Shown piece by piece: positions 4,463 to 49,451 of a stretch of DNA of 64,000 nt. The translations under genes were made by a program, and so were the position numbers. The stretch is from Bolinopsis microptera (lineage: Eukaryota > Ctenophora > Tentaculata > Lobata > Bolinopsidae). A model generated the notes under the pieces. That model was not told the DNA's origin. It worked only from the letters and a program-made list of their open reading frames with translations, and searched no databases. The stretch spans positions 15,482,962 to 15,546,961 of the forward strand of contig NC_087074.1 of assembly GCF_026151205.1 (NCBI RefSeq), read 5' to 3'. How positions within the stretch are numbered: position 1 is the first letter of the stretch; the number at the start of each line of letters is the position of its first letter.

Positions 4463-4658
4463 TGTCACCAAGATGTAAATCAGATCGAATTGAGACGCCG
4501 TTTGATCTAGTTTCTCGTTCGATCTAATTTCACGTTCGATCTAATTTCTTGTTCGATCTTACCTGGGGACCTCAGGCTATCATGTTCATAGGCGGAATGA
4601 CAGGCTGAGCGCGGCCTAGCCCAGTAAGTTGATCGATCTGATTTACATCTTGGTGACA
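4463..4658. mobile_element. MITE with 26-bp terminal inverted repeats
   Basis: Bases 4463-4488 and 4633-4658 are exact inverted repeats of 26 bp starting TGTCACCAAGATG. A third, imperfect half-copy in direct orientation lies at 4679-4703. Inside are about three tandem copies of an 18-bp unit containing GTTCGATCTAATTTC (4503-4558) and a separate small element at 4559-4627. There is no coding capacity. No clear target duplication was found, so the superfamily is open. Confidence 0.65.
4559..4627 (-). mobile_element. 69-bp miniature element, TTACCTGG ends (copy 1)
   Basis: Reverse-orientation relative of the elements at 5363-5437 and 20008-20085. The three share a GC-rich core reading GCGCTCAGCCTGTCATTCCG or close to it, and an imperfect palindrome CCTGGGGACCTCAGG at one end. 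The ends read TTACCTGG and, inverted, TTACTGGG. It lies inside the MITE at 4463-4658, so it is either nested or part of it. Confidence 0.5.
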
Positions 4659-22319: not shown

Positions 22320-22446
22320 CAAGAAATTTGTAGGACAGTAATAATCAGACATCACAATAATACAGAGTTGGGGGGCTAGGGGGGCGCAGCCGGAAAATTT
22401 TTGAGAAATAGGGTGTTCCAGACGACATTTGTAGGACAGCAATAAT
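22320..22446. repeat. G-rich satellite, left fragment
   Basis: One unit of the satellite that continues at 26025-26905. Shared landmarks are TTGTAGGACAGTAATAATCA, CACAATAATACA, a G-run and GGAAAATTTTTGAGAAATAG. It breaks off after CAGCAATAAT at the edge of the 3.6-kb element. Confidence 0.75.
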
Positions 22447-23595
22447 GTAAAATCCGGATTGGAGTATTATTTATGAGTCGCATTGTTGTAATGTATTCTG
22501 GGTAAAATTATCTTTATCCCGGTTGTTGCGACAAGTAAAAATGCTCTTATTAGGGAAAGGAGATTACTCGACGTTTCAATGTAACTACATCGTATTCATG
22601 ATCTAAAAACAAGTGTTAAAAATTCAAAACGTAAAAAACATATATCTGAGGCAAAATTTGTGAACTTTAATTTATTTTTAATCAATCAACTTTATCCAAA
22701 AATTCGATACAAAAAAGTCATAACAAAATTCATAACAAAATTAGTTTATACGACGACAAACTTTTATGGACACGTTCATTGAAGTTTGAGGATATTGGTA
22801 AATATTAGTGACCCTACTAAATGGCACGATGATGTAAAATGTGTCACACTATAAAACTATATAAACCCTCAATGGTTAGGATAATCGTTTCATCCTCTAG
22901 ATAAACGTTGTCGCATAACGATATCTTTATCAGACGATAAGATATCGCTTAAATGCGGCCGGCAGTGAGTTGTAAACTTTGTCACACTATAAAAATGTGA
23001 CAGAGTTTATATGGACCCCTTGTTGCCGTGTTTGACCAAATTTTCGAATTTCAAATTTATAGGATAGTTGCATATGACTATTATCTACATATTTAGCGAC
23101 TTTTTTCGTTAAATGGTAGCACCATGTAAACTCCGTCACACATTTAAGAAATTTATATGAGGGATGTTTATGACATCCTGACAAGAAATGCCGAATAGTC
23201 TAGCATTGTTTTGTGAGCTGAATGTGTTTGGAATTGTTCACATATTTCATTGTTATAGGCAAATACAAATACAGAAGGCAGAAATAGGTAAATTTAGTCA
23301 CATAAATTTGTATGATATCTCAACATGTGTGAAATTGAGTAAATATTAGTATACCATCTTAAACACCCTATATTACGTACTATGGATCAATTAACAATAT
23401 TTCAACCATACGCCGGTCATATAAATTATTATATGGCAGTGATATGTTAACATTGGCAAAATTTCAACACCTGAACAGGGTAAAAATTTGTAAATTTCGT
23501 CACAAAAAAATATTATAACTTTATTTGCTCCGTGTTGGCAAAATAACTAATTTATCGACATAGTGATGGTGATAAAGTAACATTATATACTAATT

Positions 23596-25105
23596 GAGGT
23601 ATGATTCTTCAAAATAGGGGCAAGAAATGTAAATTTCGTCACATACGTAATTTTAAAATTTAGATAGATTTTATTTCCTACCAATAGTCCTTATTATAGT
23701 CGGAATGGATTTATACAAGAAATGTAGAAACCCATGCCAATTTTTCATCACATTGAAACTATACTGTTGGGGCAGGAAAAGTGAATTTCGTCACATTTCA
23801 GTAACTTAGTAAAATTAAACTCAGCATTGTTAAACTTGAGTTCTAATTTGCTGAACAATAACCAACCAATAATTCCTGGAAGAAAATTGAATTTTAACCG
23901 AGGTATGATTCTTCAAAATAGGGGCAAGAAATGTAAATTTCGTCACATACGTAATTTTAAAATTTAGATAGATTTTATTTCCTACCAATAGTCCTTATTA
24001 TAGTCGGAATGGATTTATACAAGAAATGTAGAAACCCATGCCAATTTTTCATCACATTGAAACTATACTGTTGGGGCAGGAAAAGTGAATTTCGTCACAT
24101 TTCAGTAACTTAGTAAAATTAAACTCAGCATTGTTAAACTTGAGTTCTAATTTGCTGAACAATAACCAACCAATAATTCCTGGAAGAAAATTGAATTTTA
24201 ACCGAGGTATGGTTCTTCAAAATAGGGGCAAGAAATGTAAATTTCGTCACATACGTCATTTTAAAATTTAGATAGATTTTCTTTCATATCAATAGTCCTT
24301 ATTATAGTTAGAATGGATTTATACAGGAAATATAGAAACCCATGCCAATTTTTCATCACATTGAAATTATACTGTTGGGGCAGGAAAGGTAAATTTCGTC
24401 ACATTTCAGTAACTTGGTAAAATTAAACTCAGCATTGTTAAACTTGAGTTCTAATTTGCTGAACAATAACCAACCAATAATTCCTGGAAGAAAATTGAAT
24501 TTTAACCGAGGTATGGTTCTTCAAAATAGGGGCAAGAAATGTAAATTTCGTCACATACGTCATTTTAAAATTTAGATAGATTTTCTTTCATATCAATAGT
24601 CCTTATTATAGTTAGAATGGATTTATACAGGAAATATAGAAACCCATGCCAATTTTTCATCACATTGAAATTATACTGTTGGGGCAGGAAAGGTAAATTT
24701 CGTCACATTTCAGTAACTTGGTAAAATTAAACTCAGCATTGTTAAACTTGAGTTCTAATTTGCTGAACAATAACCAACCAATAATTCCTGGAAGAAAATT
24801 GAATTTTAACCGAGGTATGGTTCTTCAAAATAGGGGCAAGAAATGTAAATTTCGTCACATACGTCATTTTAAAATTCAGATAGATTTTATTTCATATCAA
24901 TAGTCCTTATTATAGTTAGAATGGATTTATACAGGAAATATAGAAACCCATGCCAATTTTTCATCACATTGAAATTATACTGTTGGGGCAGGAAAGGTAA
25001 ATTTCGTCACATTTCAGTAACTTAGTAAAATTAAACTCAGCATTGTTAAACTTGAGTTCTATTTTGCTAAACAATAACCAACCAATAATTTCTGGAAGAA
25101 CATTT
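23596..25105. repeat. 304-bp tandem array, about five copies
   Basis: Each unit begins GAGGTATG, at 23596, 23900, 24204, 24508 and 24812, exactly 304 bp apart. Units 1-2 are almost identical to each other, and units 3-5 form a second near-identical group. Each unit contains two GTRAA-N4-GTCACA motifs about 152 bp apart. Confidence 0.95.
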
Positions 25106-25167
25106 TATAATGTATGTAATATGTTAATCACAGACTATTTCATTTCATAATCATTGCATTGTTTCCA

Positions 25168-25387
25168 AATTTAACCTATTTATGATGTCTTATCATTTTG
25201 TGACGATGTTTACATCAACTGCCCTATACTTGAATCAACTGTATCCGTGTATCGTCCTTATATAGAGTTTTCCCGCAAAATTTAACTTATTTACGATGTC
25301 GTATCATTTTGTGACGATGTTTACATCAACTGCCCTATACTTGAATCAACTGTATCCGTGTATCGTCCTTATATAGAGTTTTCCCGC
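25168..25387. repeat. 110-bp direct duplication
   Basis: Two near-identical copies starting AATTTAAC at 25168 and 25278. Each contains TGTGAC-GATG-TTTAC, the inverse of the element's bipartite motif. Confidence 0.9.
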
Positions 25388-26024
25388 CTTCCAAACCAAA
25401 ATCAGATATAAATGATTTCGGAAATTCACCCAGAATTTCAAATTCCATATAATGTGACAGAATTTACATCATTTCCGAATAACCAAGTGCATGTATTAGC
25501 TAACTTTTCAAAACAACATATTTTAGGGCTATGATTGGCAGAAGAACCATCAAATAATGAGTTGAAAGGGTTTTGAGGACACCTCACAGTAGAAAAGAGG
25601 TCTCGTATTCTGAGTGTGACAAAGTTTACGAAATATTGCCTTAAAGCCGTTCGATCCGTGCCCTTTAACCAATGTTGTATCATAATTGTTAGATTGACCT
25701 AATCTACTATATTTCAGACCAAGGAATTATAATTGGGCAGCTATGGTAAACAATGTCACAAAAATGTGACATTTTTTACATTATAGTGCCTAAAAGCAAT
25801 ACATTTTATTTCTGAGCAGTGCATATGGGAGTATGGGTCACGTGGCTAATGTTCAGAACTTATGAACACGCTAGATTAATAGATGCTAAAATTAAGCCAC
25901 TATCGTCAAAAACGCTATTTTAGAAATATACCAATATCCTCAAACTTCAATGAACGTGTCCTTATAGTAAACATATCCCGGTTGTCGCAACAACCGGGAT
26001 AAAGATAATTTTACCCAGAATACA

Positions 26025-26905
26025 CAGCAATAATCAGACATTACAATAATACAAGGTTGGTGGGCCGGGCTGGGGGGCGCAACCCCCGGAAAATTTTTGA
26101 GAAATAGGGTGATTCAGACGACATTTGGCTTTAAAGAAATTTGTAGGACAGCAATAATCATACATCAGAATAATATAAAGTTGGTGGGCAAGGGGAGCGA
26201 ACCCCCAGGAAAATTTTTGAGAAATAGGGTGATTAAAACGGCATTTGGCATTAAAGAAATTTGGGGACAGTAATAATCAAACATCACAATAATATAAAGT
26301 TGGGGGGCCGGGGGGGGGGGGGGGCAGCCCCCCAGAACATTTTTGAGAAATAATGTGTTTTAGACGACATTTGGCATAAAAGAAATTTGTAGGACAGTAA
26401 TAATCAGACATCACAATAATACAAAGTTGGGAGGCTAGGGGGGCGCACCCCCCGGAAAATTTTTGAGAAATAGGGTGATTCAGACGACATTAGGCATTAA
26501 AGAAATTGGTAGGGCAGTAATAATCAGACATCACAATAATATAAAGTTGGTTGGCTAGGGATTGGGGGGGGGGGGGGGGGGGCGCAGCCAATCAGAAAAT
26601 TTTTGAGAAATTATGTGTTTTAGACAACATTTGGCATTAAAGAAATTTGTAGGACAGTAATTATAATCAGACATGACAATAATATAAAGTTGGGGGGGGG
26701 GGGCGCAGCCCCCAAGAAAATTTTTAGAAATTATTTGTTTTAGACGACATTAGGCATTAAAGAAATTTGTAGGACGGCGATAATACAAAGTTGGGGGTGC
26801 AGCCCCCGGAGATATTTTGAGAAATAGGGTGTTTCAGACGACATTTGGCATTAGAAATTTGTAATTTCAGACATCACAATAATACAAAGTTGGGGGCTAG
26901 GGGGA
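26025..26905. repeat. G-rich satellite, about 115-bp unit, 7-8 copies
   Basis: Imperfect tandem units carrying GACATTTGGCATTAAAGAAA, TAGGACAGTAATAATCAGAC, a variable G-tract and AAAATTTTTGAGAAATAGGG. Pure or nearly pure G-tracts of 10-20 nt occur near 26300-26325, 26564-26583 and 26693-26703, so quadruplex formation is plausible. Confidence 0.9.
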
Positions 26906-27099: not shown

Positions 27100-30000
27100 C
27101 CCTTGGCTACGTGTCTGCATTCTAGTTGCCAGACCCACTCTATTAGAGTGCAGACTCAACATTTTGGTTGCCAGACCCACTATTCTAGAGTCCAGACCCA
27201 CAATTCTGGTTGTCATATCTCCTATATTCTAGTTCATAGACCCCCAATTCTGGTTGACAGAGTGAAGAATTACCATTCTGGTTGCAAGATTCACTCTTCT
27301 AGAGAGGAGACCCACTCTTCTAGTAGGTATAAAGTCAAGACCCACTATTCTAAAATGCAGACCCACCATTCTGGTAGCCAGACCCACTCTTCTAAGGCGA
27401 AGACCTACCATTCTGGTTGCCAGCCCCACTCTTCTAGAGTGTAGACGCACCATTCCGATTGCCAGACCCACTATTCTTGAGTGAAGACCCACCTTTCGGG
27501 TTGCCGGACCCACTATTCTAGACTCTAGACTCCAGACGCACAATTCTGGTTGCCATATATCCTATATTCTAGTTTAGACCCCCAATTCTGGTTGACACTT
27601 GACAGAGTGTAGACTTACCATTCTGGTTGCCAGACCCACTCTTCTAGAGTGAAGACCCACTATTCTAGAATTCTTACCCACCATTCTTGTTGCCAGACCC
27701 ACTCTTAGCTAGAGTGAAGACCCACTATTCAAGAATTCTGACCCATCATTCTTGTTGCCAGACCCACTACCCTAAGGTGCAGACCCACCATTCTGATTGC
27801 CAAACTCACTCATCTTGATTCCCTTGATTGCAGACCCACTATTCTGGTTGCCAGACCCACTCTTATAGATTGCAGACACACCAATCTAGTTGCCAGACCC
27901 ACTCTTCTAAAGTGTAGACCCACCAGACGTATTATTCTAGAGTGAAGACCCACCATTCGGGTTGTCCAAACCCACAATTCTGGTAGCCATATCTCCTTTA
28001 TTCTAGTTTATAGACCCCCAAATCTGGTTGACAGAGTGTAGACTTACCATTCTGGTTGCCAGGCCCACTCTTCTAGAGTGAAGATCCACTATTCTAGAAT
28101 GCAGGCCCGCAATTCTGGTTGACAGACCCACTATTCCAGATTGTAGACCCACATTTCTGGTTTCCAGACTCACCCTTCTAGGGCGAAAATCCACCATTCT
28201 GGTTGCCAGACCCACTCTTCTAGAGTGTAGACGTACCATTCTGATTGCCAGACCCACTCTTCAAGGGTGCAGACCCACATTCATGTTGCAAGACCCACTT
28301 CTAGATTTCAGACCCACTAAATTCTAGCTACCAGACTCACTTATAGATTGCAGACCCACCATTCCAGCTGCCAGACCCACTCTTCTCAAGTGCAGATCTA
28401 CCACTCTGGTTGTCAGACCCACTCTTTAAGAGCGCAGACTGCAGACCCACTCTTCTCAAGTGCAGATCCACCATTCTGGCTGCAGACCCACTTTTAGATC
28501 GCAGACCTACCATTCTAGCCGCCAGACCAACTCTTCTCAAGTGTAGACCCACCACTCGGGTTGTCAGACTAACTCTTCAAGGGTGTACGTACACCCACCA
28601 TTCTGGTTGCCAGACCAACTTCTAGATTGCAGACCCACCATTCCAGCTGCCAGACCCACTCTTCTCAAGTCTAGACCCACCACTCTGGTTGTCAGACCCA
28701 CTCTTCAATGGTGTACGTACACCTACCATTCTGGTTGCCAGACCAACTTCTAGATTGCAGACCCACCATTCCAGCTGCAAGACCCACTCTTCTCAAGTCC
28801 AGACCCACCATCGGGTTGTCAGACCCACTCTTCAAGGGTGTACGTACACCCACCATTCTGGTTGCCAGACCAACTTCTAGATTGCAGACCCACCATTCCA
28901 GCTACCAGACCCACTCTTCTCAAGTGCAGATCTAGCACTCTGGTTTTCAGACCCACTCTTTAAGGGTGCAGACTGCAGACCCACCGTTCTGGTTGCCAGA
29001 CCCACTTATAGATTGCAGACCCAACATTCTAGCTGCCAGACCCACTCTTCTCAAGTGCAGACCCACCGCTCTGGTTGTCAGACCCACTCTTGAAGCCTGA
29101 AGGGTGCAGACCCACCATTCTGGTTGCCAGACCAACTTCTAGATTGCAGACCCACCATTCCAGCTGCCAGACCCACACTTCTCAAGTGCAGATCTACCAC
29201 TCTGGTTGTCAGACCCACTCTTTAAGCCTGAAGGGTGCAGACCCACCATTCATGTTGCCAGACCCACGTCTAGATTGCAGACCCACCATTCTAACTGCCA
29301 GACCCACTTCTAGATTGCAGACCCACCATTCTAGCTGCCAGACCCACTCTTCTCAACTGCAGACCCACCACTCTGGTTGTCAGACCCACTCTTCAAGAAT
29401 GCAAACCCACCATTCTGGTTGCAAGACCCACTTTTAGATCGCAGACCCACCATTCTAGCTGCCAGACCAACTCTTCTCAAGTGTAGACCCACCACCCTGG
29501 TTGTCAGACCCACTCTTCAAGAATGCAAACCCACCATTCTGGTTGCAAGACCCACTTTTAGATCGCAGACCCACCATTCTAGCTGCCAGACCAACTCTTC
29601 TCAAGTGTAGACCCACCACCCTGGTTGTCATACCCACTCTTCAAGGGTGCAGACCCACCACTCGGGTTGTCAGACCCACTCTTCAAGGGTGTACGTACAC
29701 CCACCATTCTGGTTGCCAGACCAACTTCTAGAATGCAAACGCACCATTCCAGCTGCCAGACCCACTCTTCTCAAGTCCAGACCCACCACTCTGGTTGTCA
29801 GACCCACTCTTAAAGGGTGCAGACTCACCATTTAGCGGCCAGACCCACGCTTCTCAAGTGCAGACCCACCACTCTGGTTGCCGGACCCACTCTAATAGAG
29901 TGAAGACTCATTATTCTCGAATGCAGATCCAAAATTCTGTTGCTAGACCAACTTCTAGATTGCAGACCCACCATTCCAGCCGCCGGACCCACTCTTCTCA

Positions 30001-30460
30001 AGTGCAGACCCACCATTCTGGTTGTCAGACCCACTCTTCTAGAGTGAAGATTCATTATTCTCGAATGCAGATCCACAATTCTGGTTGCTAGACCAACTTC
30101 TAGATTGCAGACCCACCATTCCAGCCGCAAGAACCACTCTTCTCAAGTGCAGACCCACCATTCTGGTTGTCAGACCCACTCTTCAAGGGTGTAGACCCAC
30201 AATTCTGGTTAACAGACCCACTTCTAGATTGCATACCCACCATTCTAGCTGCCAGACCCACTATTCTCAAGTGCACACCCACCACTCTGGTTGTCAGACC
30301 ACTCTTTAAGGGTACAGACCCATCATTCTGGTTGCCAGACCCACTTCTAGATTGTAGACCCACCATTCTGGTTGCCAGACCCACTTCTAGATTGCAGACC
30401 CACCATTCTAGCGGCCAGACCCACTCTTCTCAAGTGCAGACCCACCACTCTAGGCAACAG
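27100..30460. repeat. 3.4-kb satellite of 21-bp monomers with higher-order structure
   Basis: The basic monomer is close to CAGACCCACCATTCTGGTTGC (21 bp) and about 150 diverged copies are present. The left part (to about 28300) alternates a TTCTAGAGTG monomer with a TTCTGGTTGC monomer. The right part has a longer repeat of about 105-126 bp with TTCTCAAGTG, CTCTGGTTGTC and a TTCAAGGGTG block, some with a GTACGTACAC insert. Because 21 is a multiple of three, open frames of 60-132 codons appear in all registers on both strands, giving 7-residue repeats. All are broken by stops and none has a gene context, so they are not called as genes. Confidence 0.95.
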
Positions 30461-38616: not shown

Positions 38617-39417
38617 ATGTCTACATTTGATGATCTCTACACCCTTTCCCGCCAACTTGGATCCGGTGGATTCGGATGTGTCTACAAATGCTATGAACAG
38701 AAAACTGGAGATGCTTACGCTGTTAAATTCTTCTCAGACATGCCCGTTAGTAGAAAGACCTACTCTTCCTCCGACAAGATGAAGATCCCAGACGAGATAA
38801 TCCTGTGGAGAAACCTTCGACACAAGAACGTTATAAGATACGTCCGCCACTTCTTTGAGCGAGGAACTTGGATTGTGGTAATGGAGCACTGTTCTGGTTA
38901 CAAGGACCTCTTCTCCTACGTCAACAAAAGAGAATCCCCCATGTCGGAGAGTACAGCTGCTTCCATCATCTCCCAGACCCTCGATGCTGTGATGTACTGC
39001 CGTTCCAAGAAGATCGACCACAGAGACATCAAAGACGAAAACCTTCTCTACAACCCAAAGACGAAGCATGTCATGCTGATAGACTTTGGTTCATCCTCCC
39101 TTGTCTCCTCAACCTACAACCGTCTCCAAGGAACCGATGTCTACCATCCACCTGAACTGTTTTTGGACGGCAGCTTCAAGTCTACCGATGGAGTTATTTG
39201 GGCGGTGGGATCCCTTGCTTACATCCTGCTAAACGGAGATTGCCCTTACCAAACTCTGGATGACCTGAAAGGCGATGTTCCAATAGTCTGGATGAACGAG
39301 AAGTCTTCTTCCTCTGCTATAAGATTCGTTAGACGTTGCCTCAGAAGAAGACCTGTGGACAGAGAGTCTTTGAGCTTGCTGAGGAAATCTGCTTGGTTGA
39401 AGAATTTTAAAAACTAA
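38617..39417 (+). CDS. PIM-like Ser/Thr protein kinase, copy 1
   Basis: Intronless, 266 residues. The kinase domain fills the protein: glycine loop LGSGGFG (14-20), ATP-binding Lys in YAVKFF (37), helix-C Glu in PDEI (60), catalytic HRDIKDEN (135-142), DFG (156-158) and PPE (178-180). HRDIKDENLL, the IDFGS activation start and the YHPPE loop resemble vertebrate PIM kinases of the CAMK group, which are constitutively active and lack regulatory domains. It would act on cytosolic substrates, which are unknown. The start follows a TATA/initiator promoter by about 65 nt. It is the first of four tandem copies. All catalytic residues are present, so activity is expected. Confidence 0.9.
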   Translation: MSTFDDLYTLSRQLGSGGFGCVYKCYEQKTGDAYAVKFFSDMPVSRKTYSSSDKMKIPDEIILWRNLRHKNVIRYVRHFFERGTWIVVMEHCSGYKDLFSYVNKRESPMSESTAASIISQTLDAVMYCRSKKIDHRDIKDENLLYNPKTKHVMLIDFGSSSLVSSTYNRLQGTDVYHPPELFLDGSFKSTDGVIWAVGSLAYILLNGDCPYQTLDDLKGDVPIVWMNEKSSSSAIRFVRRCLRRRPVDRESLSLLRKSAWLKNFKN

Positions 39418-39660
39418 CATATTGATTTGAATGTATTGTCCAAATATTTTTGTAAATTTGTTAATTCTTTTCATAATCCCTCGATCCAAATCATTTAGAA
39501 GTCTTTTGTATCAAAAGTTAGCAATATTGGGCCAGCTCATGGTCAATTACTCCAAAATAAGGCATCTATGACATTATGTTGCTCCATAAATTGTACATAT
39601 ATTAGTATTACATGGACATTATAGTTAATTTAAGCCTACCTAAAAGTATCTACTATGTTT

Positions 39661-39829
39661 AGAAGCTGAGATAACTATATATGAATAATGAATATAAGTA
39701 TAACACAAATTGGCGTGGCCAAATATCATTCATAACTGATCAAACTACAAGCTTACAAGTGTTTGCTTTAAAAAAACAGTATGTACTGTTATACTTATTC
39801 ATTATTCATATATAGTTATCTCAGCTTCT
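39661..39829. mobile_element. Foldback MITE, 3' of kinase 1
   Basis: Inverted arms 39661-39704 and 39788-39829 start AGAAGCTGAGATAACTATAT and differ only by a 2-nt indel. The loop is 83 bp. A second copy 3' of kinase 2 (44831-44986) shows it was duplicated with the kinase unit. Confidence 0.8.
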
Positions 39830-40395
39830 AGATCTAAGCTTTAACTCAACCTGACATCAAAAAATCCGTTTAATCTTATGTTTAGCCAGTAAAGTCTTAT
39901 CAGATGTAATTAAATAATTGAATAATAATATGGCAACAGCTAAAATGTATTAATTAATCATGAATGTGTATGAAATTAAAAGTAGGTTGACGCTTATAAA
40001 CAAAAGTTAAAATGAAATTGTGTGATTATATGTTACAAGTTTATTACTAGTTCATCATTTAGAACGGTGTTTAGTACCGCCCTCCGCGTGTCCTACGCCC
40101 TCATGTCCTCCGCTTTTGTGTCTACCACATTCAGCATTGTGCCTGGTTCCCGATCTGCTTCAACGTCCTCGTGTGGAATGTTATTTAGCTTAGCTTTTCA
40201 CTCTACTTGCTACTGTCAACTGGGAAATGGCTCGTTAGTTTCAACGAATAAACAGATAATTTCCAAGTTTTTTCATGAAATATTGGGAGTTTTAAAATAA
40301 AATTTAACGTACATAGTGGTTAACGTTTTTCGTGCAGCGAAATTTTCTGACTATATTCAGTAATTTATTTTTGAATTTAATTTTGTTATTAAATT

Positions 40396-41370
40396 GGAGC
40401 ATTTCAAGGAGATGCACTATCAGGTAATCTATTTACTGTTGTTGAAGCCGCTGCACTTATTCACCTCAGATCTGTACTCTCCCAAGTATCATCAACACCT
40501 TACCCAGTGAATCATCCAATCCCTAATCCTCCTATCTCAGAAGAATTCATGCCACTCGAAACAGGATACTCTGATGATATTGACTTTAATAACACTGAAC
40601 TTGCTCCACTCAAAGAAATGCTTCCTATCGCTAAAGATATATTCCAGCAGTGGGACCTTCATATCAATTCTTCCAAGACTGAATTTGTCCATTTTTATTT
40701 AGCAGATCCTAAACCCACTGTTAAACGCAAGGTGATTGTTGGAAAAGTGTATAGAGGTGATGAAGAGTGGCGCTCTAACAAAACTTTAGGATCGTTGATG
40801 TGCACTGTTAAGGATATCAAGAATCGAATATTCCTTGGTAATGTCGCCTTTAGTAAATTTCAGAAAGTTTGGATGAAGAGCAAGATTTCAGTCCAAAGGA
40901 AGATCAAAATCTACGAGGCACAAGTAGTCTCTATTCTACTCTACAACTGCAACTCCTGGGCTGCACCACTAGCTTCGTTGAATGAACTTGATATTGCTCA
41001 TCGCAAACACCTCCGAAGAATCCTCAACATCAGATGGCCTACTCGGGTTATTTCTAATGAGGCACTCTATGCTCGTTGTTATGTCACTCCCTTGTCTGTG
41101 AGAGTCTCTAAGTTTCGATGGAGAATGTTAAGACATATCTTAAGAGGACAGGAAGACTCACCAGCATACACCTCTATGTTATTTGCTATAAATTCTGATA
41201 TTTTTATGGAAGGGAGACGGGGTAGACCATGTTTAAACTTATTAGATGTTATTAGAAAAGACTTGACTAGTAGAAATCTTGATATTAGACTTAAAAATTT
41301 GACTGATTTCGAAGACCTTAGATTTTTAGCTTTAGATAGGGAGGAGTGGAAGAAGTTAGAAGATGGTTGA
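40396..41370 (+). mobile_element. 5'-truncated LINE (non-LTR retrotransposon), reverse transcriptase C-terminal part
   Basis: Open from just after a stop at about 40390 to TGA at 41368-41370 (about 324 codons). It begins inside the RT domain with FQGDALSGNLF (the PQG motif region), then the active-site motif GYSDDIDF (a YADD variant), an NSSKTEF motif and the thumb-like LLYNCNSWA region. The typical C-terminal KHLRRILNIRW and GRPCLNLLDVIRKDL follow. The 5' part (endonuclease and RT fingers) is missing, as is usual for abortive reverse transcription. A TACTACTACTACTATTA tail near 41458-41474 looks like a microsatellite-type LINE 3' end. It sits between kinase 1 and cathepsin 1. The clade is not assigned. 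Confidence 0.8.
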
Positions 41371-41740
41371 TGTTTTTGTTTTCTTTTTTATGCGTTTTGA
41401 TATCTATAAGGTGCCTAGGATGCTCTTTTAAAGAGATATTTCGTACTTTGAAAGATTTACTACTACTACTATTAAATTGTCATATTTATAATATATATAA
41501 GTAAAAACTTAAAAAGCGATTTGACGAAGTGAAACACAATTTATGAGCTCATTTCATTTTGAAATTTCATTACATGAAAATTATCTTCATAGGAGGATCT
41601 TGGCGGACTGCACTTCAGTGTAAACCCTTTTGTTAGTTGATGTAATGACCTGGTTCTTTCCTCTTGTACTGAAATAATCCTTCTGTTGGTAAATCTCCCA
41701 CATTCCTGAGTCCTGACTGAAGCAGCTTTACTCTCAAACC

Positions 41741-42736
41741 CTAGATCAGCGAAGTCTGGTGTGGATCCGTACAGGACTCTTTTTGTCCTGCTGCGTCGTA
41801 TATCGTGATTTGTCCCTTTCTAAAGCACTTCTTGCTGCCTGTTGCCTTGGGGTCGAAGCAGCATCCCTTATATTTGCAGCTACTCTCTGATAGTATGTTG
41901 TTGTCGAGGCACAGAGTACGATCTGCAGGGTGAGTGTCCGAACACACATGTCACATCCCAGTAAGGGTTAGATCTCCAGTCAATGTGCATTCTATAAGCA
42001 GACACAAAGCACAGGTTACGTTGACCGCGGTCGAAGAAAGCATATCCTCCTCGTCCCCATAAGTATCCCCAACTGTTTTTTATCTTGAAGAAATCAACCC
42101 CGTACCCAGAGACTACAACTGCATGGTTAGGGCTGGGGTCCACGCCAAATCCCGTCCCGTGGTAAAGACCAAGTAGAATTGGAACTGCAAGGAAGCATAG
42201 ATATAGACCACTGCAGGACCTTCTTCAAGCAGAGCCTTGACCAGGCCGTTATCAATTCTATTGTCAACCGTGCGAGCGTATGGTTTTGCTCTGGTGAGAG
42301 CATTAGGGAGAGGGTTCTTCAGGTCATCACACACTCCATCCCTTCCCTCGTATTCCTTGTCTGCTCTGAGGGGAAGGTAACCATGATTGGAGGATTTAGT
42401 CACAGGACTGTTTTTTCCAGCCCAATTAATAGCAGTATCACTCCACCCTCCACGGCACCCGTCCATGTGTTTGAAAGTGCTGTCCAGCAGGGTCTGCTCC
42501 GACAGTTCCTTGTACTCGCCGTGCTCTATGATGTGGAGCCCCTCCATCGCAGCTACTGCAGCAAAACTCCAGAAACTTCCACACCCACCTTGGTTCCTGA
42601 CAGGGGTCATCTCCCACAGCTTCTCAACTTTGTAGTCACTAGTCACCCAGGTTCCAGGTCCACACTCTCTTCAGCCTGTGTTCAGTTGAAGTCCAAGGTA
42701 GCTCTTCTTTTCCTTATCACCCAGAATCCAGATCTG
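41741..42736 (-). pseudogene. Papain-family cathepsin with C-terminal trefoil domain, broken copy 1
   Basis: The remnant covers the mature peptidase C1 domain and a P-type trefoil domain. The active site reads CGSFWSF where papain-family enzymes have CGSCWSF, so the catalytic Cys is Phe, and LLDSTF has Ser for a disulfide Cys. The His (PNHAVVVSGYG) and Asn (KNSWGY) regions are present but in another frame after an apparent one-base loss near 42165. A further shift near 41947 precedes the trefoil (spaced Cys, KGCCFDP, 41741-41947). The signal peptide and most of the I29 propeptide are deleted: sequence equal to copy 2 around 45325 is joined to sequence equal to 45597. The intact ancestor would have been a secreted cysteine protease with a mucin-type trefoil tail. 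Confidence 0.8.
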
Positions 42737-43420
42737 TGAGTAAGAATACTTGCTATTTATTCACCCGTGAACAGAATTAGAGGCAGCTGTCCTGGATAGA
42801 AGTGCGCACTCAATTTTTAATTTAATCATTTCTAATTACTAGGGTTTATAAACCTATGTTTCTTAGAAGCTTGAAATTTTATGGGGAGCGTCTTGTTTGA
42901 CAAGTTGTTGTAAACTAATTCACAGTTTATGCTTTAGAAATAACACTTTTAGTGGCGTCTATTGAATGAATATGACAATAGAGAGGCCTCAAGTGTATTT
43001 AATTTTACAACATATGCTGTCCTAACATGAAATAGATTAACACTGTTATCTTGATATAGTCGAGTCAAAGCTGCAAATGCAAACTTTTTGCTGTTCAGTC
43101 CAGAAAATACGGAATTAATATTGAAATATGTAACCAGCGACCGTATACCTTATTGGACGTTATTTGACCGGATATTGAGTGAACGGAAATACTTTTGAAC
43201 GGACAATACACATTAAAATGAACGTTAGGGCCTCCAGAATCAAATTAATGTCCGTTGAAAGGTAAGGTACATTGTCTACCGTACACTTATGTTATTGAGC
43301 CATAACTGACATTAGCTTATAATGTAATATTAAAAGTACCTATTGCTCTTGTGTTAAAATAAAGCATAATGTGCTGCTAACAATAATTATTTTTGCGTGC
43401 TGTGACGTGATGTCAAGGTG
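42737..43420. repeat. Duplicated cathepsin-kinase spacer, copy 1
   Basis: Nearly identical to 45597-46245. Both lie between a minus-strand cathepsin and the next plus-strand kinase, so this is the divergent promoter region of the duplication unit. No exon inside. Confidence 0.85.
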
Positions 43421-43673
43421 GAAGGGGATAATATATCTCGTTCTTAACACACGATCACCCTCCGGTCATGCTATTGATCAGATGTTGTAAGTATGCACTA
43501 TGCAGCGTGTTATGCGAGACGTCTGAACTGTCGAATATCTGCAATATGTTATTGATCACATGTCACCTCGTCATTGGGTGGAAATATCTGATATTGATCA
43601 CATGTCACCTCGTCATCGGGGTGATACATGATACTCCCATACCCAATCCGAGGTATTGACAAGCTGATGGCGC

Positions 43674-43710
43674 TATATAACCCACCCAGAAATACGACTC
43701 TCCATCAGTT
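43674..43710 (+). promoter_or_regulatory. Core promoter of kinase 2: TATA box and initiator
   Basis: TATATAA at 43674-43680 and TCAGTT at 43705-43710, with 33 nt from T to A. The upstream block TGATCACATGTCACCTCGTC occurs before kinases 2 and 3. Confidence 0.7.
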
Positions 43711-43760
43711 ATTTTCTTCATCTACATCAACTAACATCATATCTCTTACTTTTTATCAAC

Positions 43761-44561
43761 ATGTCCACATTTGGTGATCTCTACACCATTTCTCGCAAGC
43801 TTGGCTCCGGTGGATATGGAACTGTCTTCAAGTGCTACGAGCGCAAAACTGGAGATCCATATGCTGTTAAGTTCTTCACTGATGACCGGGTGAAAAGAAA
43901 GACCTACTCTTCCTCCGACAAGATGAACATCCCAGACGAGATAACCCTTTGGAGAAACCTTCGACACAAGAACGTTATAAGATACGTCCGTCACTTCTTC
44001 GAGGGAGGAAATTGGATTGTGGTAATGGAACATTGTTCTGGTTACAAGGACCTCTTCTCCTACGTCAACAACAGACCCTCCCCCATGTCGGAGAGTACAG
44101 CTGCTTCCATCATCTCCCAGACCCTCGATGCTGTGATGTACTGCCGTTCCAAGAAGATCGACCACAGAGACATCAAAGACGAAAACCTTCTCTACAACCC
44201 AAAGACGAAGCATGTCATGCTGATAGACTTTGGTTCATCCTCCCTTGTCTCCTCCACCTACAACCGTCTACAAGGAACCGATGTCTACCATCCACCTGAA
44301 CTGTTTTTGGACGGCAGCTTCAAGTCTACCGATGGAGTTATTTGGGCGGTGGGATCCCTTGCTTACATCCTGCTAAACGGTGATTGCCCTTACCAAACTC
44401 TGGATGACCTGAAAGGCGATGTTCCAATAGTCTGGATGAACGAGAAGTCTTCTTCCTCTGCTATAAGATTCGTTAGACGTTGCCTCAGAAGAAGACCTGT
44501 GGACAGAGAGTCTTTGAGCTTGCTGAGGAAATCTGCTTGGTTGAAGAATTTTAAAAACTAG
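43761..44561 (+). CDS. PIM-like Ser/Thr protein kinase, copy 2 (mosaic)
   Basis: Intronless, 266 residues, all kinase motifs intact (glycine loop LGSGGYG, YAVKFF Lys37, HRDIKDEN, DFG, HPPE). The first ~110 residues and the promoter match pseudogene copy 3 almost exactly. From about residue 115 to the stop, and through the 3' flank, it is near-identical in DNA to copy 1. This pattern indicates gene conversion or unequal crossing-over in the duplicated array. Function is as for copy 1: an apparently active cytosolic kinase with unknown substrates. Confidence 0.9.
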   Translation: MSTFGDLYTISRKLGSGGYGTVFKCYERKTGDPYAVKFFTDDRVKRKTYSSSDKMNIPDEITLWRNLRHKNVIRYVRHFFEGGNWIVVMEHCSGYKDLFSYVNNRPSPMSESTAASIISQTLDAVMYCRSKKIDHRDIKDENLLYNPKTKHVMLIDFGSSSLVSSTYNRLQGTDVYHPPELFLDGSFKSTDGVIWAVGSLAYILLNGDCPYQTLDDLKGDVPIVWMNEKSSSSAIRFVRRCLRRRPVDRESLSLLRKSAWLKNFKN

Positions 44562-44830
44562 CATAATGATTTGAATGTATTACCCAAATATTTTTGTAAA
44601 TTTGATTTGTAAATTCTTTTCATAATCCCTCGATCCAAATCATTTAGAAGTCTTTTGTATCAAAAGTTAGCAATATTGGGCCAGCTCATGGTCAAATCAG
44701 GTCAATTACTCCAAAATAGGGCATCTTTGACATTATGTTGCTCCATAAATTGTACATACTAATATTAGTATTACATGGACATAGGACATTATAGTTAATT
44801 TAAGCCTACCTAAAAGTATCTACTATGTTC

Positions 44831-44986
44831 AGAAGCTGAGATAACTATATATGAATAATGAATATAAGTATAACTGATAACACAAATTGGCGTGGCCAAA
44901 TATCGTTCATAACTGATCAAACTACAAGTGTTTGCTTTAGTAAAACAGTATGTACTGTTATACTTATTCATTATTCATATATAGTT
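44831..44986. mobile_element. Foldback MITE, copy 2, truncated
   Basis: Same as 39661-39829, but the right arm ends at ATATAGTT and is fused directly to cathepsin sequence at 44987. The fusion marks a duplication breakpoint. Confidence 0.8.
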
Positions 44987-45548
44987 GACTGTTTTTTCAG
45001 CCCAATTAACAGCAGTATCACTCCACCCTCCACGGCATGCCCGTCCATGTGTTGAAAGTACAGTCCAGCAGGGTCTGCTCCGACAGTTTCTTGTACTCGC
45101 TGCGCTCCTTGATGTGGAGCCCCTCCATCACAGCTACTGCAGCAAAACTCCAGCAACTTCCACACCCACCTTGGTTTCTGACAGGGGTCATCTCCCACAG
45201 CTTCTCAACTGGGTAGTCACCCAGGTCCACACTCTCTTTAGCCTGTAGAGGAGGAGCAGGTTCGGCTGTATGGTTCAGTTGAAGTCCAAGGTAGCTCTTC
45301 TTTTCCTCATCACCCAGATCTGCGAACTGTGTTAAGTCTGCCACCCACTTTTCCTGGCTGGAGTTGATGAGTTCTATCTCAGCAGCGGACTTCTGGAAGT
45401 TTCTGTATCGATCAATTTCGCTTCTCAGACCGGCGTAGTTCTTGTTATACTTTGCTTTCCAGTCTTTGAAGGTACTTCTTAGGTCTTTCTCAGCGGAGGA
45501 GCAGTGTGCTGCTACACAGATGAGGACAACTGTAGCTTTAATCATCAT
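44987..45548 (-). pseudogene. Papain-family cathepsin, truncated copy 2
   Basis: ATG at 45548 opens a signal peptide (MMIKATVVLICVAAHCSSA), an I29 inhibitor propeptide (about residues 27-80) and the start of the mature domain. The active site is intact: Gln126 in RNQGGCG and Cys132 in CGSCWSF. Small indels near 45050-45060 shift the frame after LLDCTF, compared with copy 1. The remaining sequence stops at 44987, where it is joined to the foldback MITE. His, Asn and trefoil regions are absent. It supplies the N-terminal half that copy 1 lost, so the two together outline a secreted cathepsin-trefoil protein. A short secreted propeptide fragment could still be made, but no protease. Confidence 0.8.
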
Positions 45549-45596
45549 TCATCGTAGTTCGATTAAAGTATCACGGTAAAACGTGGATACCTCTAT

Positions 45597-46245
45597 GAGT
45601 AGGAATACTTGCTATTTATTCACCCGTGAACAAAATTAGTACCAGCTGTCCTGGATAGAAATGCGTTAATCTCACTCAGTTTTTAACTCAATCATTTCGA
45701 ATAACTAAGGTTTATGAACCTATTTTTCATAGAAGCTTGAAATTTTATGGGGAGCGTCTTGTTTGACAAGTTGTTTTAAACTAATTCACAGTTTATGCTT
45801 TAAAAATAACACTTTTATTGGCGTCTATTGAATGAATATGACAATAGAGAGGCCTCAAGTGTATTCAATTTTACAACATATGCTGTCTTAACATGAAATA
45901 TATTAACACTGTTATCTTGATATAGTCGAGTCAAAGCTGCAAATGCAAACGTTTTGCTGTTCACTCCAGAAAATACAGAATTAATATTGAAATATGTTAC
46001 CAGCGACCGTATACCTAATCGGACGTTATTTGACCGGATATTGAGTAAACGGATATAATTTTGAACGGACAGTAAAATGAACGCGCGCTAGGGCCTCCAG
46101 AATCAAATTAATGTCCGTTGAAAGGTAAGGTACATTGTCTACCGTACACTTATGTTATTGAGCCATAACTGACATTAGCTTATAATGTAATATTAAAAGT
46201 ACCCATTGCTCTTGAGTTAAAATAAAGCATAACGTGCTGCTAACA
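45597..46245. repeat. Duplicated cathepsin-kinase spacer, copy 2
   Basis: Near-identical partner of 42737-43420 with a few small deletions. Confidence 0.85.
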
Positions 46246-46501
46246 AGGTGAAAGGGATAATATATCTCGTTCCTAACACACGATCACCCTCCGGTCATGC
46301 TATTGATCAGATGTTGTAAGTATGCAGCGTGTTAATGTTATGCGAGACGTCTAAACTGTCGAATATCTGCAATATGTTATTGATCACATGTCACCTCGTC
46401 ATTGGGTGGAAATATCTGATATTGATCACATGTCACCTCGTCATCGGGGTGATACATGATACTCCCATACCCAATCCGAGGTATTGACAAGCTGATGGCG
46501 C

Positions 46502-46538
46502 TATATAACCCACCCAGAGATACGACTCTCCATCAGTT
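46502..46538 (+). promoter_or_regulatory. Core promoter of kinase pseudogene 3
   Basis: TATATAA at 46502-46508 and TCAGTT at 46533-46538, 33 nt from T to A as in the intact copies. It still looks functional despite the broken coding region. Confidence 0.65.
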
Positions 46539-46588
46539 ATTTTCTACATCTACATCAACTAACATCATATCTCTTACTTTTTATCAAC

Positions 46589-47388
46589 ATGACCACATTT
46601 GGTGATCTCTACACCATTTATCGCAAGCTTGGCTCCGGTGGATATGGAACTGTCTTCAAGTGCTACGAGCGCAAAACTGGAGATCCATATGCTGTTAAGT
46701 TCTTCACTGATGACCGGGTGAAAAGAAAGACCTACTCTTCCTCCGACAAGATGAATATTCCAGACGAGATAACCCTTTGGAGAAACCTTCGACACAAGAA
46801 CGTCATCAGATACGTCCGTCACTTCTTCGAGGGAGGAAATTGGATTGTGGTAATGGAACATTGTTCTGGTTACAAGGACCTCTTCTCCTACGTCAACAAC
46901 AGACCCTTCCCCATTTCGGAGAGTACAGCTGCTTCCATCATCTCCAGACCCTCGATGCTGTGATGTACTGCCGCTCCAAGAAGATCGACCACAGAGACAT
47001 CAAGGACGAAAACATCCTCTACAACCCCAACACGAAGCATGTCATGCTGATAGACTTTGGTTCCGCCTCCTTCGTCTCCTCCTCCTACAATCGTCTCCAG
47101 GGAACTGATATCTACCATCCTCCTGAATTCTTCTCGGACGGAAGCTTCAAGTCTACTGATGGAATTGTTTGGGCCCTGGGTTCTTTTGCTTACATTCTGC
47201 TTAACGGAGATTGTCCCTACGATACTCTAGAGGACTTGAAGGATGACGTGCCGATAGTCTGGACGAACGAGAAGTCCTCTTCGTCTGCTATAAGATTTGT
47301 GAGACGTGCTCTGAGAAGACGACCTGTTGATAGAGAACCATTGAACCTGCTGAGGAAATCTGCCTGGCTGAATAACTTTAAGAAATAA
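46589..47388 (+). pseudogene. PIM-like kinase, copy 3, one-base frameshift
   Basis: ATG at 46589. The frame runs 124 codons, then shifts because TCTCCCAGACC of the intact copies is TCTCCAGACC here (about 46944). The remainder, from TLDAVMYCRS through HRDIKDEN, DFGSA and HPPEFF to the stop at 47388, is fully open in the next frame. There is no other lesion, so loss is recent, or the deletion is an assembly error, or the frame is bridged. The C-terminal half is of the same type as copy 4 (NILYNPNTKH, EFFSDGSF) rather than copies 1 and 2. Confidence 0.85.
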
Positions 47389-48558
47389 GATATTGATTTG
47401 TATGTAATAAGATATTGATTGCATGTAATATACTTTGTAAATAATTTTATTAATTTATTTCATAATTCATCAATACAAATTTGCGTTATTTCATTTTTAA
47501 CTTTAAGACGAAAAGATCGTTAATAAACTAAATATACCATCTCTGGTCATGTGTTAGGAATTATAGTCCAGTAAATGTATATTACATTTTCGCCCTTTTG
47601 ACTCACGAGGTGAATAATAGGAAAGGTCTACTCCAGAATAATTTATTGTTATAATATCAAATACTTATCTCAATTCTAGATATTCATATCTTAAGAAATG
47701 ATGACTACCTCTTAAAACACAATTGGCACAGTATTGCTGCTGACTGAGTGGCAGGGTACGGGTATTTGTTAGAATATTAAAAGGCAAGATTCCTACCTAT
47801 TTTATTAAGTTTCTTACTGGAACCAACTTGTTTGGTTACAGAAACTTCGGCCGAAGTTAGTTTACAAGAGATCGTTCACAATATAAGATGCTGTTTTTTA
47901 GCTGTGCAATACCTCGTCAGGCCATTACCCCATAACTATTAACTATGGATCCTTTTTATCGATAGCACGCGTTATCATAATATATATTTCAAAATCTTTA
48001 ATGGTTCTTATACTGATAAATGAGGTAAGTGAGATTCACAGTTAATAACTTCTCGCATAAGTTTTCATATTGATATACATTGTCTGGTGTAAACTTATTT
48101 TATTGAGCCATAAATGACCTTCAATTGTGTTGCATTCTAACAGTACCTGTTGTTCATGTATCACTATCAATACATGTAATTGTATCAATTCAGCCGTGTT
48201 ACGAGCTAGACGTGATGTCAAGGTGATAGGGGATCAATTATCGTGTCAGATTATTAAAAAGAAAGATAGGCAATAGTGGATCAGATACATTGTGCAGAAA
48301 TCGTGATCCTGCTCTGGTCATGGCCATTGATCAGATGTTGAAAGTGTGCGTGTTATATGAGTCTCACGTAAACGTCTCACATAATTTGAGACGTCCAACT
48401 CGTACAGTCTAATATCTGCAGCATGTTATTGATCGGGTAGAATATCTGATATCGGGGTAGAATATCTGATATCGATCACATGACATCCGGGTGATACATG
48501 ATCGCTTAGATACTCCAATAACCGATACGGATATGACGTATCGACAAGCTGATGACGG

Positions 48559-48595
48559 TATATAAGCCACCAGGAAATACGACCCTTCATCAGTT
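48559..48595 (+). promoter_or_regulatory. Core promoter of kinase pseudogene 4
   Basis: TATATAA at 48559-48565 and TCAGTT at 48590-48595, again 33 nt from T to A. The distal flank is diverged from the other copies, so the shared core spacing stands out. Confidence 0.65.
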
Positions 48596-48651
48596 ATTTC
48601 CTTCAACAACTATCCACTGAAATCAGATCTCCTTTACTACCTTTTATCAAC

Positions 48652-49451
48652 ATGCCTACATTTGATGATCTCTACACCCTTTCTCGCAAGCTTGGCTCCG
48701 GTGGATATGGAACTGTCTTCAAGTGCTACGAGCGCAGAACTGGGGATCCCTATGCCGTTAAGTTCTTCACAGATGACCGGGTGAAAAGAAAGACCTACTC
48801 TTCCTCCGACAAGATGAACATCCCAGACGAGATAACCCTTTGGAGAAACCTTCGACACAAGAACGTCATCAGATACGTCCGTCACTTCTTTGAGCGAGGA
48901 AATTGGATTGTGGTAATGGAACATTGTTCTGGTTACAAGGACCTCTTCTCCTACGTCAACAACAGACCCTCCCCCATGTCGGAGAGTACAGCTGCTTCAT
49001 CATCTCCCAGACCCTCGATGCTGTGATGTACTGCCGCTCCAATAAGATAGACCACAGAGACATCAAGGACGAAAACATCCTCTACAACCCTAACACGAAG
49101 CATGTCATGCTGATAGACTTTGGTTCCGCCTCCTTCGTCTCCTCCACCTACAATCGTCTCCAGGGAACTGATATCTACCATCCTCCTGAATTCTTCTCGG
49201 ACGGCAGCTTCAAGTCAACTGATGGAGTTGTTTGGGCTCTTGGTTCCCTTGCTTACATCCTACTGAACTCAATTTCTCCCTACCCGAATCTGGATGACTT
49301 GAAAGATGATGTTCCGGTAATCTGGATGAACGAAAAGTCCTCTTCGTCTGCTAGAAGATTCGTGAGACGAGCTCTGAGAAGACGACCTGTGGATAGAGAA
49401 TCATTGAGCCTGCTGTGGAAATCTGCTTGGTTGAAGAATTTTAATAAATAA
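48652..49451 (+). pseudogene. PIM-like kinase, copy 4, one-base frameshift
   Basis: ATG at 48652. GCTTCCATCATC of the intact copies is GCTTCATCATC here (about 48998), a one-base loss 10 nt before the position of the copy 3 lesion. Downstream sequence is open to the stop at 49451 and keeps HRDIKDEN, DFGSA and HPPE. NGDCPY after the activation segment is replaced by NSISPY. As in copy 3, everything but the single shift looks selected as a kinase. Confidence 0.85.

Follow-up and report, generated by a model that had tools for sequence, protein, structure and literature searches.

A three-box site repeated along a young non-autonomous DNA transposon of Bolinopsis microptera differs in concert between two sister families

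Ac/Ds and En/Spm transposons carry many short sites in both subterminal arms, which are bound by an element-encoded protein and are found also on non-autonomous copies, and we know of no coordinated letter switch between sister families at orthologous sites in either system. Here, we describe a non-coding DNA transposon of 3,194 bp, family W, in a 64,000-nucleotide stretch of the ctenophore Bolinopsis microptera (contig NC_087074.1, positions 15,482,962 to 15,546,961 of the forward strand; hereafter the window, which also provides the position numbers used below). W carries a three-box site of fixed spacing and mostly inward orientation on both of its arms, in which it differs in concert from a sister family, B. 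The closest parallel is provided by the VANC21 and VANC6 motifs of Arabidopsis VANDAL elements (Hosaka et al. 2017, PMC5735166; Sasaki et al. 2023, PMC10398659), where, in the parts of these papers drawn on here, a short motif likewise occurs in one transposon family in the same orientation within non-coding tandem repeats; its subtype switches from one related family to another, and coevolution with an element-encoded protein has been proposed. TnpA is reported to activate Spm (PMC10398659). According to the same parts, VANDAL elements have one short motif that accumulates via tandem repeats, whereas the site described here has three spaced boxes and differs base by base also at dispersed orthologous places, and its carrier is non-autonomous, with a putative binding protein. 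We call the general kind, binding-site arrays of DNA transposons, already known, and the coordinated code switch between sister families new.

The ends of W are defined by terminal inverted repeats (TIRs) and a target-site duplication (TSD):

22764..22767, no strand: left TSD, TTAT, from the end comparison among copies
22768..25961, plus strand: whole non-autonomous DNA transposon W, defined by its ends, TIR and TSD
22768..22800, plus strand: left TIR, 33 bp, element positions 1-33, the reverse complement of the right end
25929..25961, minus strand: right TIR, 33 bp, a perfect match to the left TIR
25962..25965, no strand: right TSD, TTAT, from the end comparison among copies

Among 25 copies of W and related families with both ends present, picked from the copies fetched, 24 have a perfect 4-bp TSD, reading ATAT in 16, ATAA in three, TTAT in two and four other words once each; T stands before it in 23 of the 25 copies and A after it in 23, giving the target T[ATAT]A. 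The window copy holds no stop-free frame of at least 90 codons, and a scan of the window against Rfam at the gathering score returned no match. The left ends scored (40 of 1,179 first-look candidates) and the right ends scored (40 of 1,181) are 98-100% identical to the window copy, and because of this identity we regard W as recently mobile: it is a young non-autonomous DNA transposon, with the TIRs, the fixed-length TSD and the many copies without a transposase of their own that characterize non-autonomous cut-and-paste elements.

Assignment to a superfamily was attempted mainly on the TSD. piggyBac and Kolobok elements target TTAA, to which none of the 25 TSDs corresponds, Harbinger, hAT, Mutator and Tc1 were rejected on the TSD lengths that we take to be theirs, and Ac/Ds and En/Spm differ from W in motifs as well as TSD length. 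Sola2 elements come closer, with TIRs and a 4-bp AT-rich TSD of the form AWWT (ATAT, AAAT, ATTT; PMC3627910); ATAT was found in 16 of the 25 copies and AWWT fits 16 of 25, but the W TIR has 33 bp compared to 12, 13 and 21 bp in the part of that paper drawn on. No Sola2 transposase was seen in the fetched copies, which were viewed using no Sola2 model or sequence, and W is therefore not assigned to Sola2. Tetris, a foldback element of Drosophila virilis (PMC4079207), is likewise apparently non-autonomous with internal tandem repeats (~220 bp there), but its repeats, as far as the excerpt describes them, lie in the TIRs and seed satellite DNA, whereas those of W are internal and no satellite was found among the matches listed. 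Coral CMITEs (PMC2872659) are also non-coding and have a conserved internal feature of suspected use in transposition; in the portion of that paper drawn on, conservation between families is higher in the interior than in the TIRs, with piggyBac-like transposons implicated, whereas our families have well-conserved TIRs and retain single boxes rather than the interior as a whole. No earlier description of W appeared among the open-licence papers listed. The TIR letters turn up in 97 papers, and by their titles the 15 listed concern other matters.

The repeated site comprises GGCA (more generally GG[CT]A; box 1), GTAAA (box 2) and GTCACA (box 3), and individual sites are numbered by element position. 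An earlier note on this stretch, made from the letters alone, had described a bipartite motif, GTAAA-N4-GTCACA, repeated about 20 times with an invariant four-base gap. Both halves and the fixed gap stand, but a third box belongs to the site and had been missed. Exact matches to the bipartite pattern number 19 in the window, all within 22834-25779, and with up to two mismatches there are 48 compared to a mean of 25.65 and a maximum of 38 in 100 shuffles. Across the 264.65 Mb of the genome, with the pattern read backwards as control, GTAAA-N4-GTCACA occurs 3,230 times vs 252, whereas gaps of N5-N7 pooled give 584 vs 680; the N4 gap is thus fixed, as the other spacings are at background, and it also holds in other copies read. 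GG[CT]A lies 10 or 11 bases ahead of box 2 in 11 of 15 site types, where base frequencies in the window predict ~1% per site type by chance; the site types without it are 134, 229, 264 (degenerate) and 2686 (GGAA nearby). The complete pattern GGCA-N6/7-GTAAA-N4-GTCACA was counted 1,994 times genome-wide and its T-type counterpart, GGCA-N6/7-GTTWA-N4-GTCACA, 1,497 times, both compared to 0 in the reversed control. The earlier note had named a background frequency outside the element, and spacing that varies in other copies, as outcomes that would speak against it. Instead, the genome-wide count against its control gave an enriched motif with constant spacing, and lone matches make up 16 of 100 among the bipartite matches listed (C1 up to 14.4 Mb), a rate that extrapolates to roughly 290 per genome, near the 252 of the control. 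The two lone sites that were read (L028) lie outside any family sequence. W shares with VANDAL/VANC-type systems a family-specific short motif in dense same-orientation repeats.

In the window copy, the sites are arranged as follows:

22823..22848, plus strand: tripartite site 67, GGCA-N7-GTAAA-N4-GTCACA, by site alignment
22901..22915, plus strand: degenerate site 134, ATAAA-N4-GTCGCA, no box 1; family B has GCTAA-N4-GTCACA here
22961..22986, plus strand: tripartite site 205, outer member of the left face-to-face pair, by site alignment
22996..23010, minus strand: site 229, inner member of the left pair, ATAAA-N4-GTCACA, no box 1, by site alignment
23115..23140, plus strand: tripartite site 359, box 1 GGTA, by site alignment
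23277..23302, plus strand: tripartite site 521, by site alignment
23446..23460, plus strand: broken site 679, GTTAA-N4-GGCAAA in W; intact in family B, GTTAA-N4-GTCACA
23479..23504, plus strand: tripartite site 723, box 1 GGTA, by site alignment
23596..25104, plus strand: internal array of 304-bp units, two sites per unit 152 bp apart, by repeat and motif scan
25167..25387, minus strand: right-arm 111-bp tandem repeat with one inward site per unit (25199, 25310), by repeat and motif scan
25453..25467, minus strand: site 2686, no box 1 at the usual distance, by motif scan and site alignment
25615..25640, minus strand: tripartite site 2848, by site alignment
25736..25760, plus strand: tripartite site 2979, right face-to-face pair; T-type in older relatives
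25765..25790, minus strand: tripartite site 2998, right face-to-face pair, by site alignment

The arms and inner array together hold about 20 site copies that mostly point inward, in plus orientation at element positions 67, 205, 359, 521 and 723 and throughout the 304-bp array, and in minus orientation at 2432, 2543, 2686, 2848 and 2998, which bears out the orientation described before. The earlier coordinates 22834, 22972, 23126, 23288, 23490, 25453, 25615 and 25746 are exact, while two placed near 25205 and 25315 really lie at 25199 and 25310; there are two sites per 304-bp unit as had been claimed, but GTAAA is not invariable, as 2 of the 10 sites in the array have GTGAA. Elements vary in how many array units they contain, and the right arm of one copy (L015) has seven sites in 111-bp steps. 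The distance from one site to the next is 111, 138-162 (152 within the array) or 202 bp, in agreement, besides the 111 and the 202, with the intervals of roughly 150 bp noted earlier. The two face-to-face pairs were also recovered, at 22972 (plus) and 22996 (minus, one mismatch) and at 25746 (plus) and 25765 (minus), so that one pair, whose second member faces outward, lies ~200 bp from each end (205/229 and 2979/2998). Next come, on either arm, two inward sites separated by 162 bp (359/521 on the left; 333/495 from the end on the right), and a comparison of arm with arm found little likeness besides the TIR and the sites.

Family B, the second large family, was found through L031, a complete element adjoining another TIR. 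Identity to L031 is 96-98% among the 39 further left-arm copies scored (of 1,099 candidates) and 97-99% among the 39 further right ends scored (of 1,218 candidates). The left arms of W and B share 77.8-79.2% identity in the copies compared, their family majorities agree in 79.8% of 856 left columns and 88.8% of 643 right columns, and the TIRs differ jointly at both ends, with GAAG in W and TGAG in L031 and L052. At one locus (G000 C1:12308497-12314560), site 521 of family B occurs three times at distances of 2,389 and 2,391 bp, a spacing suggestive of an element duplicated in tandem.

Sites are found at the same places in W and B, and at 12 of 12 dispersed orthologous sites the third position of box 2 is A in the W majority and T in the B majority, where box 2 is typically GTTWA. 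This comparison used 15 W and 8 B copies (L034 incomplete), excluded site 679 (broken in W), site 264 (degenerate) and the 152-bp array sites, and let the 111-bp unit at 2543 represent both units. Counted cell by cell, 179 of 180 W letters at this position are A and 90 of 94 B letters are T. At site 723, A appears in two B cells, which we ascribe to gap placement in the local alignment, as the copies read GATAA. Elsewhere, the two families differ in 1 of 72 GTCACA columns, 10 of 48 spacer (N4) columns and 39 of 286 flank columns (34 of 226 without the columns of neighboring sites). A switch at 12 of 12 sites has a probability of 4e-11 at the first of these flank rates, 1e-10 at the second and 5e-9 at the average left-arm change of 20%, where sites, not copies, are the units of evidence because copies within one family are related. 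Since these sites had originally been picked for their likeness to GTAAA in W, we recounted by GTCACA alone (9 of the 15 W and 7 of the 8 B copies) and obtained 14 places, again with A vs T at 12 of 12; these 12 read GTCACA or GTCGCA in W and GTCACA in B. The remaining two are a place that is box-less in B, and site 679, which is broken in W yet still has T in box 2 (GTTAA).

Older relatives are mixed or T-type, while each young family is near uniform. At site 2979, the fetched right ends of the A2-type that carry the site (L039, L040 and, in L045-L048, the inner right end) have GTTAA in 6 of 6 cases, whereas all 15 W copies have GTAAA. The three older B-like copies carrying site 134 (L043, L051 and L052) all read GCAAA there, vs GCTAA in all 8 young B copies, and site 359 is GTAAA in L051 vs GTTTA in young B copies. 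L045-L048 form a subfamily with two right ends in tandem (e.g., L048:111-3737), of which the inner has a damaged TIR and T at site 2979; an ATAT duplication is present at the outer end of L048. Outside the element in L040, a 25-bp minisatellite (L040:3429-3743) contains GTTCACTCCGTCACA, one mismatch from the T-type pattern.

We propose that the sites are docking points for a sequence-specific protein of an autonomous partner, most likely its transposase, which would contact all three boxes over about 26 bp, gather on the arms and bring the two ends together. This extends the suggestion of the earlier note that a multi-contact transposon protein binds here, which is supported by the invariant spacing, by sites that point inward on both arms and by the A/T contrast at 12 of 12 sites. 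Because the sister family has T for A at every dispersed site compared, two recognition codes may coexist, such that two versions of the protein with different preferences would exist and each family would have been retuned site by site to its own version. Taken as a whole, we consider docking sites, two codes and site-by-site retuning the probable explanation, with room left for doubt; that the sister families diverged into two recognition codes, with the same base switched at every site compared, its neighbors free to drift and older relatives left half-switched, we give an even chance.

The sites could instead bind a VANC-like anti-silencing factor encoded by an element, with site density directing desilencing to one family. 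VANC targets share with W a short motif in one orientation, dense in non-coding tandem repeats, and a switch between C-type and T-type subfamilies (PMC5735166, in the part drawn on), and many of the W sites belong to the inner array, at a distance from the ends. However, VANC targets are reported in these excerpts to evolve by the formation of tandem repeats, whereas here 12 dispersed sites differ base by base, and the inward layout on both arms would better suit the bringing together of ends. We therefore regard an anti-silencing role, the main alternative, as unlikely, if worth keeping in mind.

Within families, the sites show no extra conservation in inserted copies: in W, 11 of 1,980 core letters are changed compared to 88 of 13,318 flank letters (Fisher P 0.76), and in B 13 of 1,034 compared to 120 of 6,172 (P 0.17), in counts that skip columns with fewer than three letters and have low power because the copies are young. 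Together with the retention of box 3 between families, this fits sites that matter only while the element moves, and it supports, at low power, selection on the sites during transposition of source elements and not after insertion. It also argues, with the same low power, against a host transcription or chromatin factor, including a CENP-B-like one, that reads the sites for a host function in place. Spacing of ~150 bp is regular in part of the element, and single boxes may resemble known host-factor sites, but one host factor alone would leave unexplained why two families of the same genome have different letters at every site compared. Nor did the CENP-B-like or centromeric role raised in the earlier note find support on the partial evidence at hand, as the first 100 matches of either type, those listed on C1 (A-type up to ~16.4 Mb, T-type at ~1.3-14.0 Mb, centromeres unplaced), form element-sized clusters or stand singly, with no long satellite array among them; a host role thus appears very improbable. 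Equally hard to credit is a functionless A/T contrast, arising from gene conversion among sites or by chance in one family ancestor: the inner arrays do vary in number and their units share sequence, as tandem repeats do, but the 12 sites sit in mutually different flanks, changes amount to 39/286 in flanks and 1/72 in box 3 against 12/12 at box 2 position 3, and the change was not one event because older relatives show mixed states.

Several observations weigh against docking sites retuned to two protein versions. (i) Other positions changed too, and more often than the flanks: the preceding base and position 4 of box 2 each changed at 7 of 12 sites and position 2 at 4 of 12. Columns of the GGCA zone changed in 4 of 47 cases, not clearly less than the flanks. 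(ii) B has exceptions: one array site in L033 and one site in the right arm of L037 are GTAAA. (iii) Two older relatives point different ways as to the ancestral base: L050, which is about equidistant from W and B, has T at 9 of 9 orthologous-looking sites (a count without the stray GTCACA at 4377 and the offset copy at 4606), while L029, 84% identical to W, has A at most sites and G, C or T at three (GGTTC at 2998, GCGAA and TTCAA at two others, GCGAA being in the right arm). (iv) W vs B is a single contrast. (v) No autonomous element or transposase was recognized in the fetched copies or in genome searches that scored ~40 candidates each, and as no partner was found, we infer the docking protein from its presumed sites.

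In the search for this partner, most frames were judged by eye and three, all from L012, were scanned against Pfam. The long W copies L011-L014 (5.0-8.9 kb) and L016 (3.6 kb) were rejected, as they contain foreign inserts: those of L011 and L013 have reverse-transcriptase-like frames (by eye), and the 3.8-kb insert of L012 is a separate inverted-repeat transposon with frames bearing a CXC-like cysteine motif, none of which matched Pfam at the cut-off (TCR at E 0.35, below cut-off). A frame scan of L015 (4.0 kb) found no frame of 90 codons. Foreign inserts are thus present in 5 of the 6 longest fetched W copies, and a 6.9-kb copy (C1, 15.20 Mb) lies outside the fetched set. The TIR is followed by non-family letters in 4 + 17 matches, and the 8 of these 21 that were fetched proved to be old, interrupted or truncated copies apart from two: the L031 end abuts a family B copy, and the L041 TIR is a remnant beside an unrelated repeat. 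Nine odd clusters or single sites on C1 comprised eight old or truncated relatives and L028, with no family sequence. The scored right ends of B have 3 loci in common with its 40 scored left ends, which does not suffice for finding long B copies.

Around W, the window shows further repeats and gene-like frames:

22464-22534 and 25982-26052: a second inverted repeat just outside W, 71 nt, 85% complementary
26024-26900: a tandem repeat of ~120 bp with long G runs in its units
27118-30451: a minisatellite of ~3 kb built from a 21/42-bp unit, strongly asymmetric between the strands (GC skew -0.33 in 28001-30000)
38617-49451: four protein-kinase-like frames and, between them on the opposite strand, two cathepsin-like frames (by eye)

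Because the second inverted repeat brackets W, W appears to have inserted into another inverted-repeat element. By eye, the ~120 bp unit has a likeness in the left flank near 22330-22440, and the kinase-like and cathepsin-like frames apparently form a tandem gene cluster.

How a protein that binds many sites changes its specificity is an open question, because each single-site change should hurt. If two recognition codes have indeed diverged, W, B and their relatives would document base by base, like a fossil series, how a DNA-binding protein changed its specificity for a target of many sites, and the change would form a barrier to cross-mobilization between the sister families. With 12 dispersed sites, two near-uniform end states and part-switched relatives in one genome, the order and rate of switching would be measurable, and the A-type and T-type pair provides a ready-made binding assay. 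The system may thereby show how sister transposons stop sharing a transposase.

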